Assembly (NCBI GenBank): GCA_964019165.1
Contig: OZ025279.1
Location: 3,923,602 to 3,987,601, forward strand
From: Mastigias papua
Taxonomy: Eukaryota; Cnidaria; Scyphozoa; Rhizostomeae; Mastigiidae
Length of the DNA: 64,000 nt
Direction of reading: 5' to 3'
Made by a program: the position numbers and the translations under genes. Below are positions 22,739 to 45,302 of this stretch, in pieces (position 1 is the first letter of the stretch; each line of letters starts with the position of its first letter). The notes beneath the pieces were generated by a model. The model was not told where the DNA came from. It did not search any database and saw only the letters and a list, made by a program, of their open reading frames with translations.

Positions 22739-23760
22739 TGTCTGTTCTATTATCACAAATAACAAACATTTGTATCCTGCCAGAGCAAGGTACTTATAAA
22801 AGCTTTTAAAAAGCTGTTCCCGTAATAACAGACTACAAAACCGAGTGAATATGTAAATGATTATTAACAGCAAGATAAGTGTTCTGTATCAAACAATGTC
22901 ACAACACTCTAGGTCCTCTTGGTAGCCTAGAACATTTCACCCCCAAAGCTCGCCCCAGGCTCCTAGATGCAAAAAGAGTCTGGAAATGTTGAAATGGTGT
23001 ATTCTTTAAAAGTGTCTGCAGGGAATGGAGGGCAATCCATGTGACCTCGATACAAAGCATAATCACAAATCCCAAATTCTATGGTCTCATCTAATGGCAC
23101 GTTGGGTCAAAGACTGCTGATGTCAAAAGAGCATAGAAATGATCTGGCAGGTTCACAGGTTCATAACCATTTTGATAGGTAGGGATGAAAATGACCAGTC
23201 AATTAAATAAGCAATGTTCTACGCGATTCCATATAAGGAATGGCAGCATTGTTTTCTCGTTAATTCCTATCACCAGGAATTATCATCATTTCATTTTCTT
23301 CAAACAGATGTTTGACATCATCAGTCACGGTAAATTAAAAACATTGGCTGATAGAGCGGCAAGTTACTCTAAACTTGTTAATATTATGATGGGTTAATGA
23401 ATGGACAGTAAGTTCTAATTACCGTCGAGTGATGTATATCACTTCGCGCTTTGCGCCAATTTTACCGTAGTTCACTGCCGTTGTTTCATGAAGATAAATC
23501 TGGATGGTGGATTACTAGGACTTTCATGAATTAAAAACTTAATCAAATCTTCGTGACGTGACTGTATGAGAAAATGAATAGCCTGGCCTGGGCTCGAATT
23601 TACTTTCCTACTAACGCCTTTAATTCCAGGGGTCATGATGACCCTCTTTTGTGGGCAGTTCTCTATCAAAAACAGGTCTAAAGCATATCGCGATAAGGTC
23701 TCAATGGTTCTTTTATGCAAATTGATAGAGAAGGCCAATGTGAGCAAATGAAATACCTTC
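22739..23760. other. Unassigned sequence
   Basis: No gene, RNA or repeat boundary is supported. The frame of the SAP gene extends upstream to 22873 without a recognisable motif and is probably 5' flank. Confidence 0.35.
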
Positions 23761-30955: not shown

Positions 30956-32690
30956 CAACCAATCAGAGACCTGAACGGTGACGTTATTTCTTTACACTTT
31001 GCCTGCCACCCCCTCCAGCAATGGTAAAACAAAGCTTCACAAAAAGGCCATCATCAATACATACTTGCTTGAAACTCTCCCAGTGTTTGATAGCATTTTT
31101 CTAAGGCAATAAGCTATAAATTCCTAGCAGCCCTAAGCGATAGTTTCATGGAAATTTTCTGCAGCGACGTTCAAACTTCATCATTCCTAAATTGTATGCA
31201 AAATAGGTCTAGCTACCTATGAAAAGTGGCCCCCAACCCAAAAGAACTGTCCACAATTCACCATCAATACTGCAAAATTCCTCAAGGGAACCCCTTCTCA
31301 ATAGCATCCTCGAACTGAAATAAATTTCTTATTGTAACTGCAACTTTGTCTCTTCCCACCCCAGAAAGCTAGGTAACGATTTGCACATTTCCAGTAACAA
31401 AAACCGACAAAGGAAGGAGGAGAAAGAAAATTGAAATCCTTCTTTAACATAGTTGTTTTATCACGGGAGAATCTTTCACAATAAACTTATTGCGGAATGA
31501 AACAGAGTTATAAAGTTGCCATTCGGTGAATTAGAATTATTCCATTCGGTGAATCACACTTCATGTGGCTACAGTGAATGTGAAAATATGCAATGGCTTC
31601 CTGACGTATTCTCATTATCGTCGATGATACATGTTTTTCGCTATAAGAGTGTATCTATTTTATCTTGCGTCAGCAGGTATTGATCTTTGCAGGACTGTTT
31701 CACAAAAATTTGTAAATCATTACCTATTTTTCGGAGGTGGTAGAGACAAAGTTGAAATTGAAATAAGAAATTAACTTGAAATTGATGAGGCTGTATAGCT
31801 AATAGATTAATACTGGAGGTAACAATGTAACTAATTTTTCACTCAGCTGGTGGAGCGAGCTTATGAACTACTAGCAGCGAACCACCTATTTTATTCTTTC
31901 CTTTCGTTGGTGTATTTGATTAACAGTTCTAGAAAATTCCTCTCACATTACCTGTCAAGAACTTTTGGCCATATGCATGTATTCATCCTATAGATTTTAG
32001 AATTATTTGGTACACTTAAAAATCTGTCCAATGTTATCTTGTCTGTTTCCTGTACAAAAACTCGACATCAAATTTTACATGAAATTTACTTAACTTGTTG
32101 TACATGTTTAATTGTAAGTAACATATTTTGTTGGAGCCAGAATACTTAGTGTCCTTTCTTGCTGTATTTGTTCACAGTGTAACCAAACTACAGCACGAAA
32201 AAGCGGTACCATGTTTTAACCATACTGAAAAATGGTACCGCTTTTTCGAGCTGTAGTGAAGTTCTGTAGTACCAACAGACTTTTCTAGTGTAACAAAAGT
32301 AAGTCGTAGTTTTAAAATTATTGTGAGATATAAAAGGAAAGAGGCTGTTGAGAAAGGGTTCCCTTGAGGAATTTTGCGGTATTGATAGTGAATTATTAAC
32401 ATGTCTTATGGGCTTGGGAGACACTTTTCCTGGGTACCTATAACTATTTGACAAACAATTTAGGAAGGGTCAAATTTGAATGTCGCTATAGAAAAATTAG
32501 ATGCAGATATCGCTTAGGGCCGCGAGGAATTCATAATTATTTCCTTAGAAGAATGGTGCTAAAAACTGGGAAACTTTCAAGCAAGTATGTATTGATGACG
32601 GTTATTGATGACGATGTTCTCCCCATTGCAAAAAGGGGTGGTAGACAAATACAAAAAAGTGACGTCACCAGCCAGGCTTCTGATTGGTTG
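30956..32690. mobile_element. Second long-TIR element, arms ~355 bp
   Basis: The left arm (30956-31310) and right arm (32335-32690) are inverted copies at roughly 80-85% by eye. Shared landmarks are CAACCAATCAGA, CATCAATACATACTTGCTTGAAA (as two overlapping runs), GCGGCCCTAAGCG and CTCAAGGGAACCC. The 1-kb interior is non-coding. A second copy of left arm plus interior lies at 62973-64000. The outer boundaries are approximate and no target duplication was found. Confidence 0.7.
32187..32257. repeat. 26-bp-stem hairpin
   Basis: Arms 32187-32212 and 32232-32257 match at 25 of 26 positions (ACTACAGC(A/T)CGAAAAAGC..) around a 19-base loop. A related half lies at 39311-39345 and its flank reappears near 10547, so it is a dispersed miniature repeat. 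Confidence 0.8.
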
Positions 32691-38548: not shown

Positions 38549-38830
38549 ATCCCCGTTACCATTTGTTATGTTTTTTCTAGCACGTGTCTGTCTCTTTTCT
38601 TTGTCTCTCTAACTCTAGCTAACTAACTCAAACATGTGCACACTCATTATTCAATCACATTAAAATGCATACATTACAAAAACACATTATCTAAGTGCAA
38701 GTATGAAATAAACAGCATTCTACCTTCTACGAAATTTCTGCAATGCCAACCGTTATAAGAAATTCTCTCAGATTATCGCCTATCTCTTACATCAATTCAC
38801 TGAGGGCACAAACTAGCATTGGCTGCAACA
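38549..38830 (-). mobile_element. Candidate 5' LTR and primer-binding site
   Basis: On the minus strand a segment from TGTTGCAGCC (38830) to ACATAACA (38564) has TG..CA ends and 4-bp inverted tips. Two bases later comes TGGTAACGGGGAT (38549-38561), placed where a tRNA primer-binding site is expected, and 32 bases further the gag ATG. No second LTR copy is in reach, so this is inferred from position and ends. Confidence 0.38.
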
Positions 38831-39033
38831 TCCACTATTATTAATACAAGAACAAAAAGTGAGTTCTGATTGCCATTCAGAAAGGCAACGAAAATCGTAT
38901 AAAACTTTAACTTAAATCACAAGGGTTTGTCATCTCCTGTATCCTTACTCACGCAAGTTCCAAAACGCGTAGCCTCTGGTCTACAGTAAAATAGAGCATG
39001 CTGAAAAATTTTCAACTTTCCAATTAAATGCCT

Positions 39034-39300
39034 GAACAACACTCTTGCAACAAGGAAAGATCTCTGTAAATGGTCCATCCTTCCATCATCTGCATGCTCA
39101 TTCTGCCTCCAGACTGAATCTCTCCAACACGTCGTCTTCAGCTGCAAGTTGCATCTTGAACATGGCCGGTACACTTGGCGCCAAAACTCGGTCCTTCTCT
39201 ATCTTGCTAAAGCCCTTTCCTCCTTTTCAGACTGTTTATTATATGCCGATCTCCCCTCGATTCTATCCCCAAGCGTCATCACTGGTGGTTTTCTCAGACA
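39034..39300 (+). pseudogene. LINE C-terminal fragment with zinc-knuckle-like block
   Basis: On the plus strand, NNTLATRKDLCKWSIL.., then CSFCLQTESLQHVVFSCK and GRYTWRQNSVLLYLA. A Cys/His cluster followed by R-Y-TWR-x-NSVL is found at the C-terminus of some LINE reverse transcriptases (R2-like or related). The rest is missing. Clade uncertain. Confidence 0.5.
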
Positions 39301-39427
39301 AGACATTCTTCACTACAGCACGAAAAAGCAGTATCATGTTTTAGACATACTGAAAGTCTTTTTTCGTCCGACACTTGGTCAGACTATATATAAAACGTCG
39401 GATAGCGACCGAAAGGTGAACCTAAAT
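39301..39427. repeat. Fragment of dispersed hairpin repeat and PLE flank
   Basis: 39308-39350 resembles the left half of the hairpin at 32187. The rest runs through a short TATATATA to the 3' end of the PLE fragment. Confidence 0.45.
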
Positions 39428-39786
39428 ATATAGCCAGATGCGTGTACACGTGATATGATGAATAATGTGCCCAGTTAGCCATATGATTGGCCACTTGGCA
39501 CCTATTCACCATTGTTTACTGGAACAGTCCAAGTGAGAAAATGAACTCTTTTTGTTTACAAAAGACTGGGTTTTGGGTCTTTATGTAAATCGATTCCAAA
39601 ACACTTAAATGAAAGGACAATCTTGCTTGCCCTATGATCCGAAACTTATCGTCTGAATATGTTTTGGCGCAGTCTGGGTTTTTAATGAGATGTTGTCCTA
39701 TGGCCGAATCACTTTTCATTTTAGAATTAGAGTTTTACACATACGAGGTGGCTGTTCCCTTATTGTAGTGTTTTTCGTCCTGATGC
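39428..39786 (-). pseudogene. PLE C-terminus and 3' region, shifted frame
   Basis: Continuation of the PLE after the 968-codon ORF stops. A frameshift lies near 39798. Another frame gives SIRTKNTTIREQPPRMC, and then at 39516-39719 AIGQHLIKNPDCAKTYSDD, SFHLSVLESIYIKTQ and KQKEFIFSLGLF, the usual end of GIY-YIG PLE proteins. It matches the fragment at 15938-16205. Confidence 0.75.
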
Positions 39787-40512
39787 TCATGGGTACATGG
39801 GTTGTTTTATTCTGTCTGCTAGTCTCTGCGTAGTGCGCCCTAAGTACCGAGCTTCACATCGGCACAAAAATTTATAAACTACACAACTTTTTTGAGTGGT
39901 AGGAACGCTATCCTTTTTAGCAGATGGTATCATGACCTTATTATTGTAGACCATACGAGGTTTCACAGCATAGAAACAGGATGTAATGGCTTTGTTAATT
40001 TGGTTTTCAAATGTTGATGAAACATTACCAATCCAGAGTAATTTTAGGTAAACTGGGCACTTCTCAGGACCACACGGTTTTTCGGCAGCAAAGTTGGCAA
40101 GTTTTTGCTTAATACAAGAAATAAGGACATCATCTGGATATCCATTTTCAATGAGCAGTTGTTTTACTCTATCAAGTTCTGAGCCTAATTTAGTTCTGGA
40201 GCAAATCATTAGTGCCCTGTGAACTAAGGTTTTAATAAGGCAAATTTTTCTTGCTTTTGGGCTGAAGGAATTCCAACGGATGTATTGCCCTGTAAACGTT
40301 GGCTTCCTGCAAACGCTGGTAAGAAATCCAGTGCCCTCTTTTTCCACCAAAACGTCTAGAAACGTCAAGGAGTTGTTTTGCTCCTTTTCTACTGTGAACT
40401 TTAAAGCTGGATGCAGCACGTTAAGTTTTCCATGAAAACAGTCACAATCCAGCTCAGAACTAAAGATGACGTAAGTATCGTCCACATATCTAAAGTAGAC
40501 ACCTGGTTTTAC
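39428..40512 (-). mobile_element. 5'-truncated Penelope-like element joined to gypsy
   Basis: About 1.1 kb, beginning just before the RT YVDD motif and running to the 3' end next to TATATAGCC. Same strand as the gypsy. It belongs to a different PLE lineage from the one at 11.5-13.4 kb (YVDD and KPTFTGQY rather than YRDD). Confidence 0.8.
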
Positions 40513-42693
40513 GGTCCTTATTTGCCGGCCATTCAAAAGCTCGCTTGGAGAATAGCCACCTGCTAATGGAGTTCTCCGGTACTGTATCAGAAACTGGTTA
40601 AGAGCAGACTTTGGAGATAAATTAGACTTTACCATTGATTTTGTAAATGTTTGAATTAACCGTTCAGCTGCCCCATTTGCAGCGAGGTGATAAGGAGCTC
40701 CTGTTAGATCCAAGATTCCTCTAGATGTGCACCAGTCTTGAAATTCAGTTGAAGTGAACGTTGTCACATTGTCAGTGACAAGAGAATGTGGAAAACCAAA
40801 ATGTGCAAAATCATGCTCCAATAAATCAATTGTAGCCTTTGTAGATGTTGAAGTAGAAAGATGAATGCAAGGATAACTTGAATAGGCATCAGTGAGCACT
40901 AACCAATTTGAACCGAGAAAGTTAATGGCATGATCTAAATGTACACGACTCCGTGGTTTTTCTGGGAACATCCATGGATGAACTGGTTGATTTGGAGGCT
41001 TTTTCTGATGCTCTGCACATGTTTGACATGCATGACTGAGCTCATTAATGCAAGAGTCGATTCCTTGCCAGTAGACGGCTGTTCTCGCTAACTGCTTCAT
41101 ACGTTGGATTCCAAAATGTCTGATATGTAGTATATCTAACACCTGTAGTTGCAAGCTCACTGGAATACAAACACGTGCACCATAGAAAAGATATCCATTA
41201 GAAACTGTCAGTGAATCATGGATCTTTTTGAAATTATCAACTGTATAAGTTGCATTATCCGCAATTTGGGTTTCTTTCTGTATCTTTCCTAACGGCCAGC
41301 CCTCACGCGTATATCGCATTACAGTTGATAGCACAGAATCTTTTGCTGTGTCCTTTTGAAGTACTCCAGGATCTCTTGGATTAAGTTGTAAGCCAATAGT
41401 TTTGATTGTGCAGATGCTATCAGTATCGGCATTACTTTCCTTCTCATCAAACTGAGTGTCTGCACCTGAAGGAAGACGACTTAGTGCATCAGCATTCCCG
41501 TGATCTTTGGTCTGCCTGTACTCAACAGTGTATTGATACTGGCTTAACATAAGCGCCCATCTTGCAAGTCGATTTGCAGCTAAAGAAGGGGTCGCTTTTG
41601 TAGGTCCAAAAAGCGATAACAATGGTTTATGATCCGTTACGAGGATGAATGTCCTTCCGTAAAGGAATTGATGGAACTTATTGAGGGCATACACTACTGC
41701 TAAAGCCTCCTTCTGGATTTGATTGTAGTTGCGCTGAGCTTCAGTCAAGGTCTTAGACGCGTTAGCTATTGGTCTCTCACTGCCATCTGTGTAGCGATGA
41801 AAAAGAACAACTCCTAATCCCACATTTGATGCATCACATGCTATTCCGATAGGAAGAGCAGGATGAAAATGTGCCAAAACAGTGTCATTACAAAGCATTT
41901 TCTTTACCGTATCAAATACAGCCTGCTCAGTTTCTCCCCAGCTCCATGTAATACCCTTTCTCGTCAGCCTGTAAAGTGGCTCAAGCAAAGTTGATAAGCT
42001 GGGAAGAAATTTGTTGTAGAATTGTACTGAGCCTAAGAAAGATCTTAGACCAGCTATGTCTGAAGGTTCAGGCATTTCCATTATTGCATATATTTTGCTT
42101 CCTTTGGCAATTCCTTTGTTAGACAAAATGTGTCCCAAATATTCTACGTAAGGTTGCGCAAAAGAACACTTCTCTAAGCGACAGCGGAGTCCTTTGTCAT
42201 TCAGCCGCTTTAACAGTCCTCTCAAATTTTCAAGGTGTTCTTGAGCCGTTGCACCACTAACCAATATATCATCGAGATAAACTGCTAAACCTGGCAGGTC
42301 ATGCGTTAGCTGATCCATAATTTCTTGAAAATATCCAGGGGCAAAATATATTCCGAAAGGAAGTCGCTTCTGGAGCAGAACACCTTGGTTAGTGCTTAAA
42401 GCAAGCCGTTTCTGCGACTCAGGCCCAAGAGGAATTTGACTATAAGCGTCAGCTAGATCAATTTTAGTGAATCCATAACCTCCGGTCAACATTTGTATTA
42501 ATTTTTCCGGTGTTGGCATGGGGTAATGATGAGTTTCTAATTGCGAGTTAACAGTAACAGAATAATCTCCACAGACATGGAGTGCAGTCTTTTTCCCTGG
42601 GGATGAAGGCTTGCGAATAGGCACTACCGGGGTACCGTATTCATTGAATTGCGTTCCTTGCCACACACCTCGCTTAATTTCTGCCTCGTACAT
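39787..42693 (-). CDS. Chimeric ORF: gypsy Pol (RT-RNase H-integrase) fused to PLE RT/GIY-YIG
   Basis: 968 codons without a stop. Residues 1-726 are Ty3/gypsy Pol: FTKIDL (75-80) and YLDD (139-142) of RT; RNase H with CDAS (about 286-289), E329 and TDHK (353-356); ADALSR (401-406); integrase zinc finger H523, H526, C556, C559; and catalytic D587, D641 and E677 with 35 residues between the last two. After NGRQIRT (721-727) the protein switches to a PLE: FRYVDD (734-739), KPTFTGQYIRWN (797-808) and a GIY-YIG start (VVY 938-940, RYLGRTTQRLADR). It ends in a stop after a frameshift in the nuclease. Upstream, one TAA (42709-42711) separates it in frame from the protease. The Met is therefore internal to the ancestral Pol. 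The fusion most likely arose by PLE insertion; use as a protein is unproven. Confidence 0.88.
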   Translation of the reverse strand: MYEAEIKRGVWQGTQFNEYGTPVVPIRKPSSPGKKTALHVCGDYSVTVNSQLETHHYPMPTPEKLIQMLTGGYGFTKIDLADAYSQIPLGPESQKRLALSTNQGVLLQKRLPFGIYFAPGYFQEIMDQLTHDLPGLAVYLDDILVSGATAQEHLENLRGLLKRLNDKGLRCRLEKCSFAQPYVEYLGHILSNKGIAKGSKIYAIMEMPEPSDIAGLRSFLGSVQFYNKFLPSLSTLLEPLYRLTRKGITWSWGETEQAVFDTVKKMLCNDTVLAHFHPALPIGIACDASNVGLGVVLFHRYTDGSERPIANASKTLTEAQRNYNQIQKEALAVVYALNKFHQFLYGRTFILVTDHKPLLSLFGPTKATPSLAANRLARWALMLSQYQYTVEYRQTKDHGNADALSRLPSGADTQFDEKESNADTDSICTIKTIGLQLNPRDPGVLQKDTAKDSVLSTVMRYTREGWPLGKIQKETQIADNATYTVDNFKKIHDSLTVSNGYLFYGARVCIPVSLQLQVLDILHIRHFGIQRMKQLARTAVYWQGIDSCINELSHACQTCAEHQKKPPNQPVHPWMFPEKPRSRVHLDHAINFLGSNWLVLTDAYSSYPCIHLSTSTSTKATIDLLEHDFAHFGFPHSLVTDNVTTFTSTEFQDWCTSRGILDLTGAPYHLAANGAAERLIQTFTKSMVKSNLSPKSALNQFLIQYRRTPLAGGYSPSELLNGRQIRTVKPGVYFRYVDDTYVIFSSELDCDCFHGKLNVLHPALKFTVEKEQNNSLTFLDVLVEKEGTGFLTSVCRKPTFTGQYIRWNSFSPKARKICLIKTLVHRALMICSRTKLGSELDRVKQLLIENGYPDDVLISCIKQKLANFAAEKPCGPEKCPVYLKLLWIGNVSSTFENQINKAITSCFYAVKPRMVYNNKVMIPSAKKDSVPTTQKSCVVYKFLCRCEARYLGRTTQRLADRIKQPMYP

Positions 42694-42708
42694 TTGAGTT
42701 AGATCTTC

Positions 42709-43338
42709 TTAGAGTGCAAAAGGTACTGCTCTGGGTTTGCAGAAAACAGGTTTTGCATCAGCTTTAAATTTTACTTCCAATTCGAAATCTTTTAATTTGC
42801 CAAGCTCATTTTTGAACAAATTTGGAAACTCCGCACATAACTGGCTGCATGCTTTTTGAAGTTCTCGATCAGGTTTCAACTCCTCGAATACAGCATGACA
42901 ACGTACATCTTCCATGAGTGTATCTACCGAGAATCCCAGCTGTTCTATTGCATTTCGTCCAAGTAGGTTAAGCGTTGGTAGTTCTGAAACATTGAATTTC
43001 AACCGCTTCTGATTGTCTGATGTTTGTGACTGTGCTGAAGTTTCGGCTTGCAAAGTAATGGACCCCAGAATCGGTAACTGGTGTTGACTAGCAGACTCAA
43101 AATGTTGAGTTGGTTCTTCCAATGTTGGTTTGCCTATTTTATGCCATGTATTCTTTCCAATAAAACTCTCTCCTGCACCCGTGTCAATTTCAAAATAAAT
43201 GGCAAGCTTTCCATCTAATTTAATAGGTAATCGAAGCTCTGGTACTTTGATGCTGTTAACTGGTAACTGGAGTACCTTCTTAGCTTTCTTCTGATCATAC
43301 TTCAAATTTTTGCTGTCTCTTCTTCTTTTAACAAGCAA
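42709..43338 (-). pseudogene. Gypsy aspartic protease and pre-RT region
   Basis: 210 codons with YFEIDTGAGESFIG (catalytic DTG; about residues 50-63) and LLGRNAIEQLG (about 130-140), the two signatures of a retroviral-type aspartic protease, which would cut the polyprotein. Then come a C-terminal FPNLFKNELGKL and DAKPVFCKPRAVPFAL. It stops at TAA 42709-42711, in the same frame as the following RT, so a single codon change broke the Gag-Pol frame. It overlaps gag by 11 bases in another frame, suggesting frameshift expression or a lesion. Confidence 0.8.
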
Positions 43339-43675
43339 ATTCTACATGACCAATCTTATCACAATAATTGCAAGTAGAATTTTTGAATCCGCAATCATTT
43401 GGAATGTGTCCTCTTTTACCACATCTTATGCATTCTCCAGTGGAATATTGAACTTTTGCAGGGGAAAATTGAGCTTTCTTCTTTGACTGACCTTTGTTAA
43501 TTTCATGTGTTGAAGTTTGTCCATGAACAGTTTCTTTAGCAACTTTCGCCGCATCTTCTACTTCAATAGCCACTTCAATAGCTTTAGCAAAGGTGAGTTG
43601 ATCATCCTTAACTTTGAAAAGGGCTTTTAACACAGCTTCATTGTTTATCGAGCAAATAAAATGAATGGTCGTCAT
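43328..43675 (-). pseudogene. Gypsy gag C-terminus with two zinc knuckles
   Basis: 115 codons: FICSINNEAVLKALFKVKDD, then AIEVAIEVEDAAKVAKE (helical), CIRCGKRGHIPNDC and CNYCDKIGHVEFAC, two CCHC knuckles that bind element RNA. The N-terminal part of gag is absent; the sequence changes to another gypsy remnant at about 43680. The end overlaps the protease frame by 11 bases. Confidence 0.78.
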
Positions 43676-43734
43676 TTAACAGCTTTTAATGATCATCAAC
43701 CATTTAAGTCCACTTTTAGTAAGTCGACTGTTCA

Positions 43735-45302
43735 TTGAACACAATGTATACAATGTTTCTTTTTGAAGCTTCCAAGTACGATTTTAATCTTGAATTATCC
43801 CCCGGAAAAACAATGGTCGTTTCTGATGCCCTAAGAAGAGCCTATTTAAATGATAACACGTCAGAGATTCCAGAAACTCAGCTTATTCACCAAGTCACTT
43901 CAATATTTCAGATTCTACCTATAAGTAAATCACGTCTTGTACAAATGCAGCAAGAAACATAATTAGACCCAATGCTACAACAGCTAATTAGTTAGACACT
44001 TCGTGGATGGCGTGATAAATAACAAATTTCACAAATTTTTTAACCATACGATAATATTAGCAGTGAAATTGTTTGCCACGAGAATCTGCTTCCTAGAGGT
44101 CAAAAAAGTATAGTTCCAATTTCAATACGTGAGACCATGAAAGATATAATTCATCAAAGTCATAATGGCATGGAGAGATGCAAAGTTCGTGTGCAACATA
44201 TATTAACATACGCATATTAACTGGGAAAGAATGAAGAAATTGAAGAATTGGTTGCACGATGTTCGCATTTTCTAACATATCGACATAGGCAACAAAAGAT
44301 AAATGTTAGTGCTCATGACATACCAAATGCACCTTGGATAGAGGCAGTATCAGATGTGTTTCATTTATCTGGACATGATTATGTAGCTGTTGTTGATTAC
44401 CATTCAAAATTCATAAACATTGAAAATGTATGTCTATAATAACAACTTCAACAGTCATTGACAACTAAAAGAAAACTTTTGCACACCATGGTATTACCAA
44501 AGAATTGTTTTCTGATAATGGCCCAGAGTACAAATCTACGGACTTCGCATATTTTGAGATTTAAAACATACCATGTCTAGCCCACATTATCCTCAACCTA
44601 ATAGGCTTGTCGAGGGATCTATCCAAGCAGTTAAACAAGCATTTAAAACAGCAAAAGATGCCAAAGAAGATTCCTATCCTACCCATTTCATTTGAATACT
44701 GTACCTGGATTAGACGGAAAATCTCCAGTTATGTGCCTTCAAATTGCAATTTAAGAACAAACTTGTCATCTTTAGTAAAAAACCTCCCAACAACCCCTAT
44801 TGGAAAGAATTCTTGATGTTGTATTAACGCAGGAGGCAAATAATATCCATCTAATAACTCTGGTACAGTAGTTCGAATGCAGGTTGATGCAGACAGGTAT
44901 TGTGACAAGAAGGGTATTGTTGTTGAACAATGCTCTGAGCCGCGTTCATATAACATCCTGAAGGAGAAAGGCACTAGTGTTTGGCACACTAGACACCATC
45001 TTATTTCTTGCCTTTGCCATGATTAGTTCAACATACAATCAGACTACGATCCACCGCAATAAAATTACCTGGCACATTCTGACCCTTATTCAAATGATAT
45101 TCCCTCCCTACATCGACAACAACAGTAACAACAATGACAAAACCGCATCTAGCTCAATCACCTTCTCCAAATCCAGTTCCTGAATCTTCAAATGAGCCAA
45201 TGCCTTTGACAAATCCAATTACCCGTTCAGATGAAACTCCGGAACAACCTCAACTTACATGTGGAGGAAGAACTATTCGTAAACCTTTACGCTATCATTG
45301 AA
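43735..45302 (+). pseudogene. Ty3/gypsy remnant: RNase H end and integrase
   Basis: YDFNLELSPGKTMVVSDAL at 43775-43830 (end of RNase H) is followed by LLPRGQK.., HNGMERCK, DYVAVVDYHSKFINIE (44375-44420) and HGITKELFSDNGPEYKS (44480-44540, second catalytic D). VEGSIQAVKQAF (44605-44640) gives the integrase Glu. The tail GRTIRKPLRYH ends at 45302. Many frameshifts and stops. It is cut off on the right by an antisense LINE. Confidence 0.75.

Follow-up and report, generated by a model that had tools for sequence, protein, structure and literature searches.

In Adineta vaga, a Penelope copy has been described that is inserted in a non-LTR element without a target-site duplication and with microhomology at its 5' junction, as reported in the portion of that account drawn on here (PMC3846280). 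In bdelloid rotifers, LTR retroelements and Penelope-like (Athena) retroelements have captured ORFs in common, according to the section of the paper used for this comparison (PMC5408684). Moreover, an excerpt of a third study sets a PLE (Penelope-like element) protein apart from R2Bm and LINE-1, in which nicking and extension are confined to one strand (PMC11167929), and from this contrast, as worded in the excerpt, we take it that the PLE protein acts on both strands. No description of an in-frame gypsy-PLE junction was found in the literature searched, although one may nevertheless have been published.

Here we describe a junction of this kind, located in a stretch of 64 kb of host DNA (hereafter the window), the content of which suggests an invertebrate animal. 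We consider it probable, at roughly 0.7, that this is a one-off junction of dead transposon fragments, produced by target-primed insertion of a PLE together with end joining, and that, as a chimera, it neither functions nor propagates.

Results

Composition of the open frame

The features on which the analysis rests are the following (window coordinates):

39787..42693, minus strand: 968-codon open frame (stop-to-stop to 42708); gypsy Pol at residues 1-727, PLE at residues 728-968
40514..43660, minus strand: Ty3/gypsy fragment that begins in gag, near residue 191 of the relative P0122, and ends in the integrase at ..SPSELLNGRQIRT, with protease, RT and RNase H between
39308..40515, minus strand: 5'-truncated Penelope-like element, starting shortly before YVDD, continuing across a frameshifted GIY-YIG region and ending at the 3' terminus usual for the family
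40514..40515, minus strand: junction, a 2-base overlap (AC) common to the gypsy and PLE parental sequences
38688..39307, plus strand: non-LTR retrotransposon ORF, C-terminal part, with the sequence preceding it, cut at the PLE 3' end
43723..44606, plus strand: piece of another gypsy-like element, close to the broken gypsy 5' end, with an open frame at 43723-43962

A sequence-only reading of this DNA had reported an uninterrupted ORF of 968 codons. The frame is exact at 39787-42693, and it is read from the minus strand, from 42693 down to 39787, a point left unmentioned in that reading; the plus strand of the same interval is stop-rich in the frame tried. The frame starts directly after a premature stop (42709-42711) that is absent from the four relatives compared, and the ORF has already been entered as a protein in the protein database searched. 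Residues 1-727 correspond to Ty3/gypsy Pol and residues 728-968 to the 3' half of a PLE. The YLDD motif (residues 139-142), the RNase H and the D,D35E integrase triad (D587, D641 and E677) were borne out by Pfam and by a check of the residues. A complete gypsy RT, also claimed, does not hold up, the Pfam match to RVT_1 beginning only at profile position 45 of 205. PLE sequence is indeed found from residue 728, with YVDD at residues 736-739, but the supposed second RT begins just before that motif and its upstream motifs are absent. Likewise, homology to the start of a GIY-YIG nuclease is present, but the region is frameshifted. To speak of two RTs in one frame is thus an overstatement; the frame contains a nearly complete gypsy RT plus a PLE RT stub. 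Automated gene prediction would nevertheless report a protein of 968 aa containing two reverse transcriptases; we draw attention to this as a caution.

The gypsy part

The Pfam domains found in frame are RVT_1, RT_RNaseH, Integrase_H2C2 and rve, and residues 32-709 match the Ty3 Gag-Pol structure (entry 7q5b). Host copies L030, L031 and L032 (the last in two pieces) align with the window at 93-96% identity, starting at 43660 and stopping at 40514 or 40515. Among the matches listed the closest relative is P0122, a Gag-Pol protein of 1419 aa that is 88-90% identical over the common part. Relative to P0122, the fragment lacks the equivalent of the first ~190 residues, and a frameshift lies in gag/protease at about 43307-43332. 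The C-terminus of the integrase was not found within the 64-kb window (best E 0.17), nor did L030, L031 or L032, used as queries, give any LTR match there. LTR pairs of 213-216 bp, 96.8-100% identical, are present in four of five other host gypsy copies, a count limited by the fifth, L034, having been fetched without its 5' end. Since no LTRs are found at the window copy, we regard it as a gypsy fragment and not as a whole element. A second gypsy copy, L031, likewise has a stop-free run, of 739 codons.

Beyond the broken gypsy 5' end, weak tblastn matches to P0122 at 43771-44412 and 44442-44606 (23 and 31% identity) mark the different gypsy-like element. Elsewhere in the window, a plus-strand open frame of 685 codons (497-2554) carries a reverse transcriptase domain (RVT_1, E 1.2e-33).

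The Penelope part

Host PLE copies align with the window from 40515 to 39308 at 94% identity. The closest relative among the matches listed, P0003 (682 aa), is 89% identical over the stretch that opens shortly before YVDD and reaches the start of GIY-YIG, and it is this identity to a full PLE protein that identifies the window PLE as a truncated copy. The first ~353 residues of P0003 have no counterpart adjoining it; only a short piece occurs 17 kb away (22993-23160). The GIY-YIG homology resumes in other frames, at 39799-39731 and 39734-39522, so that the window copy does not carry a PLE RT followed by GIY-YIG in one ORF. Its 3' terminus, ..GTAGTGAAG, is that of the family, and the ends of L010, L016 and L023 lie no more than a base away. 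Other copies are less regular: L025 and some others extend past the usual terminus into a tail, and L013, L039, L040 and L042 stop short of it. An assignment of 39308-39426 to the non-LTR ORF was considered and ruled out, as the host PLE copies align through 39308.

Truncation at the 5' end is the rule among the 30 PLE loci that hold all 43 PLE-only matches described below and that were selected for their match to the sequence immediately 3' of the join. In 24 of the 30 all arms fall short of the start of P0003, five have a full-length arm, and one (L044) has a separate 5'-end piece at the edge of the stretch. L010 is truncated 5 bases from the same point as the window PLE. More broadly, the 5' ends of L010, L018, L022, L027, L038, L041 and the window PLE (40515, reference position 1054) fall within about 45 bases (reference 1020-1064). 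A stop point of reverse transcription is one possible cause of this clustering, in loci that were preselected by the neighbouring stretch.

Head-to-head inverted pairs, with their 5' ends meeting, occur in at least 12 of the 30 loci (L012, L014, L016, L020, L022, L025, L026, L027, L028, L029, L036 and L038). In four truncated pairs both arms start from the same internal base of the reference copy (L014 at 399, L027 at 1022, L028 at 255 and L029 at 857), which suggests a single fold-back event in each and not two independent truncations. Within the window itself, an inverted repeat of PLE 3'-terminal sequence is seen at 32187-32285 (arms of about 45 and 58 bases, oppositely oriented), with no remainder of a PLE adjoining. 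The 3' ends of the PLE arms in L016 and L025 bear CTGACGAG..GGACGAAA, which is reminiscent of a hammerhead core, and the window copy is altered at that spot. Searched for a ribozyme, Rfam gave no match across the whole window at the gathering score and no match in 38800-44200 at E up to 1. In four host PLE loci, at E up to 5, it gave 18 matches, all below gathering scores and none to a hammerhead family, and we interpret the matches that fall midway between the arms of the inverted pairs in L016 and L025 as hairpins.

The junction and its flanks

Side-by-side comparison resolves the join to the base. The gypsy copies read ..AAATAAGGAC and then AACAATTGAC; the PLE copy L008 reads ..GATAACAC and then CGTAAAACC; the window locus passes from ..AAATAAGGAC directly to CGTAAAACC. 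The overlap of 2 bases is, taken by itself, weak evidence. The join is located within a 15.4 Mb contig, and the same protein is also recorded from a contig of 1.15 Mb, which we infer to belong to a different assembly or to an unscaffolded form of the present one. Neither this context, nor the second record, nor the parental sequences, which can be followed up to the common 2 bases, give any hint of an assembly error.

At the other end of the PLE, the neighbouring sequence is not gypsy. The non-LTR piece found there has a zf-RVT match of 25.5 bits, under Pfam's cut-off of 27.5, and a 68% identical copy of this element, carried by L025, shows the continuation expected past the cut. With that copy as the query, the remaining C-terminus of the non-LTR element was not found anywhere in the 64-kb window, a search that a diverged or short remnant could escape. 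No target-site duplication of 8 bases or more was detected, either for the whole block 39308-43660 or for the PLE alone; one 7-mer was shared in this test and is not placed at both PLE ends. A clean insertion of a PLE into an intact gypsy element is rejected on these grounds: the 3' flank is non-LTR, the integrase C-terminus is not found in the window and no duplication is seen. The sequence-only reading had proposed a 5'-truncated PLE that landed in phase in the integrase end, and part of this survives, as the truncation, the usual 3' end and the 2-base overlap agree with it; it did not note that the other flank is a truncated non-LTR element and not gypsy, that the integrase C-terminus and the LTRs are missing, or that no target-site duplication is visible.

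The same observations bear on an unlikely alternative in which the PLE reverse transcriptase jumped at AC from PLE RNA to gypsy RNA, and the resulting cross-class chimeric cDNA of 4.35 kb (43660-39308) was inserted at once. The gypsy and PLE parts do stand in the sense order expected of such a cDNA, although a common orientation would arise by chance in half of all cases, and the 2-base overlap lies where the switch would have occurred. A switch combined with 5' truncation would also account for both missing gypsy ends and for the missing LTRs. Template switching between retroelement RNAs is, moreover, an idea said to have been published already (PMC1950507, PMC4476161), and we have counted it in favour. 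However, insertion at once predicts that the non-LTR element continues to the right of 43660, and its continuation was not found in the window with the 68% identical query; the weak matches to the right of 43660 are to another gypsy, and no target-site duplication brackets 39308-43660.

A somewhat lower probability still is given to a later rearrangement of the DNA, by deletion or end joining between resident PLE, gypsy and non-LTR copies, without PLE machinery at the break. It draws on the surroundings, which are a mosaic of truncated elements in both orientations, on the two cut flanks with no target-site duplication seen, and on the irregular 3' ends of some other host PLE copies. A random break, however, would not be expected to leave the window PLE with the usual 3' terminus of its family, and the 5' truncation of this copy is of a kind common in that family. 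We have counted these two properties in favour of integration by the PLE, and the irregular 3' ends (for example in L013, L039, L040 and L042) against it.

Copy number of the join

A captured or propagating chimera, which the sequence-only reading had also entertained, found no backing in the host genome. A 48-base word across the junction, allowed up to 3 mismatches, had one match in 346.8 Mb (172 contigs), at the window locus, and its backward control had none; copies diverged beyond 3 mismatches are missed by this search, and repeat counts obtained in this way are lower bounds. When 501 bases around the join were used, the 49 matches reported in the host assembly comprised one that spans the join (the window locus), five that are gypsy-only and 43 that are PLE-only. 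In this search 40 of 530 candidates were scored, and no diverged copy of the join was among those scored.

Protein searches returned 659, 575 and 720 matches, and the 120 listed from each gave 358 proteins besides P0001 itself. None of these 358, taken from the matches listed, spans the join. Alignments crossing it by at least 10 residues on both sides number 83, and in each of them, with the best 25 listed, the weaker side is at most one third identical. There was no match in viral contigs. The window ORF does head a protein cluster with five member sequences, some of which may carry the junction, for example as versions of similar length of the same locus from other assemblies or haplotypes; near-identical shorter proteins head clusters of their own, such as a 355-aa protein that is 99.7% identical to part of P0003.

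Selection and age

The changes private to the window copy look neutral. In the gypsy part, compared among six gypsy sequences, there are 44 private substitutions in 2180 bases, distributed 17/11/16 over the codon positions, 11 of them synonymous and 33 replacement; in the PLE part, compared among 11 PLE sequences, there are 10 in 711 bases (3 synonymous and 7 replacement). Pooled, 14 of 54 are synonymous and 40 replacement, against a random expectation of about 22% synonymous (p 0.52), and the private-substitution test thus gave no sign of purifying selection on both halves. At sites that are invariant among outgroups, the window copy has 26 changes as against 9 in the nearest relative for gypsy (490 sites, p 0.006), and 6 as against 0 for the PLE (155 sites, p 0.03). 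The probability of meeting no stop in 54 random substitutions is about 0.06, for a frame that was picked for being open, and just outside the frame there are a premature stop and frameshifts. As the sequence-only reading had supposed, a recent event explains the openness: with a private divergence of about 1.4-2%, the frame is simply young. Its length is a matter of chance and youth.

It is against this evidence that a propagating or domesticated gypsy-PLE chimera with two reverse transcriptases has to be measured. The frame is open over 968 codons, the integrase triad and YLDD are kept, and the cluster has its five members. On the other side stand the single match of the junction in the host assembly, the lack of a join-spanning protein among the matches listed and the neutrality of the private changes; the PLE RT is half missing, its endonuclease is frameshifted, and the gypsy part has neither LTRs nor an integrase C-terminus. 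We consider such a chimera highly improbable.

Discussion

The window locus consists of ordinary nested and broken retroelements, and the open frame crosses what is a junction in a transposon graveyard. In the reading that we prefer, the usual 3' end of the PLE would have been joined, by target-primed insertion, to a DNA end within the non-LTR element. Reverse transcription would have halted inside the RT gene of the PLE, and the truncated 5' end may then have been joined, via two matching bases, to a broken end inside a degenerate copy of gypsy, and the intervening stretch of target DNA would have been lost. As neither flank is intact, a single insertion does not suffice and other events must have taken part; the steps that we infer are synthesis primed at the target, the joining of ends and the deletion that went with it. 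The reading frames would have matched by luck, with a chance that we estimate at about one in three for two coding sequences of the same orientation, and mutations since then would have been too few to close the frame. The locus adds one further PLE 5' junction resolved to the base, which is useful for understanding how PLEs finish integration.

Compared with a Ty3/gypsy LTR retrotransposon, the gypsy part has the protease, RT, RNase H, H2C2 and D,D35E integrase in their usual order, but the start of gag, the C-terminus of the integrase and the two LTRs are gone and the frame is interrupted. The PLE part resembles a GIY-YIG PLE of the P0003 type over the sequence that runs from shortly upstream of YVDD as far as the GIY-YIG region, and its 3' terminus is that of the host copies; it differs in lacking the first ~353 residues and in the frameshifted GIY-YIG region. 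As far as the portion of PMC3846280 used here describes it, Pen2_Av of Adineta vaga is likewise a join between a PLE and another retroelement, with no target-site duplication and with microhomology at the 5' junction. There, however, the PLE is inside one target element, whereas the window locus has different elements on each side. The LTR and Athena elements of bdelloid rotifers are similar in that parts are common to different classes of retroelement; in the section of PMC5408684 drawn upon, the ORFs concerned are found in several element families, whereas the window holds one broken junction with a single match.
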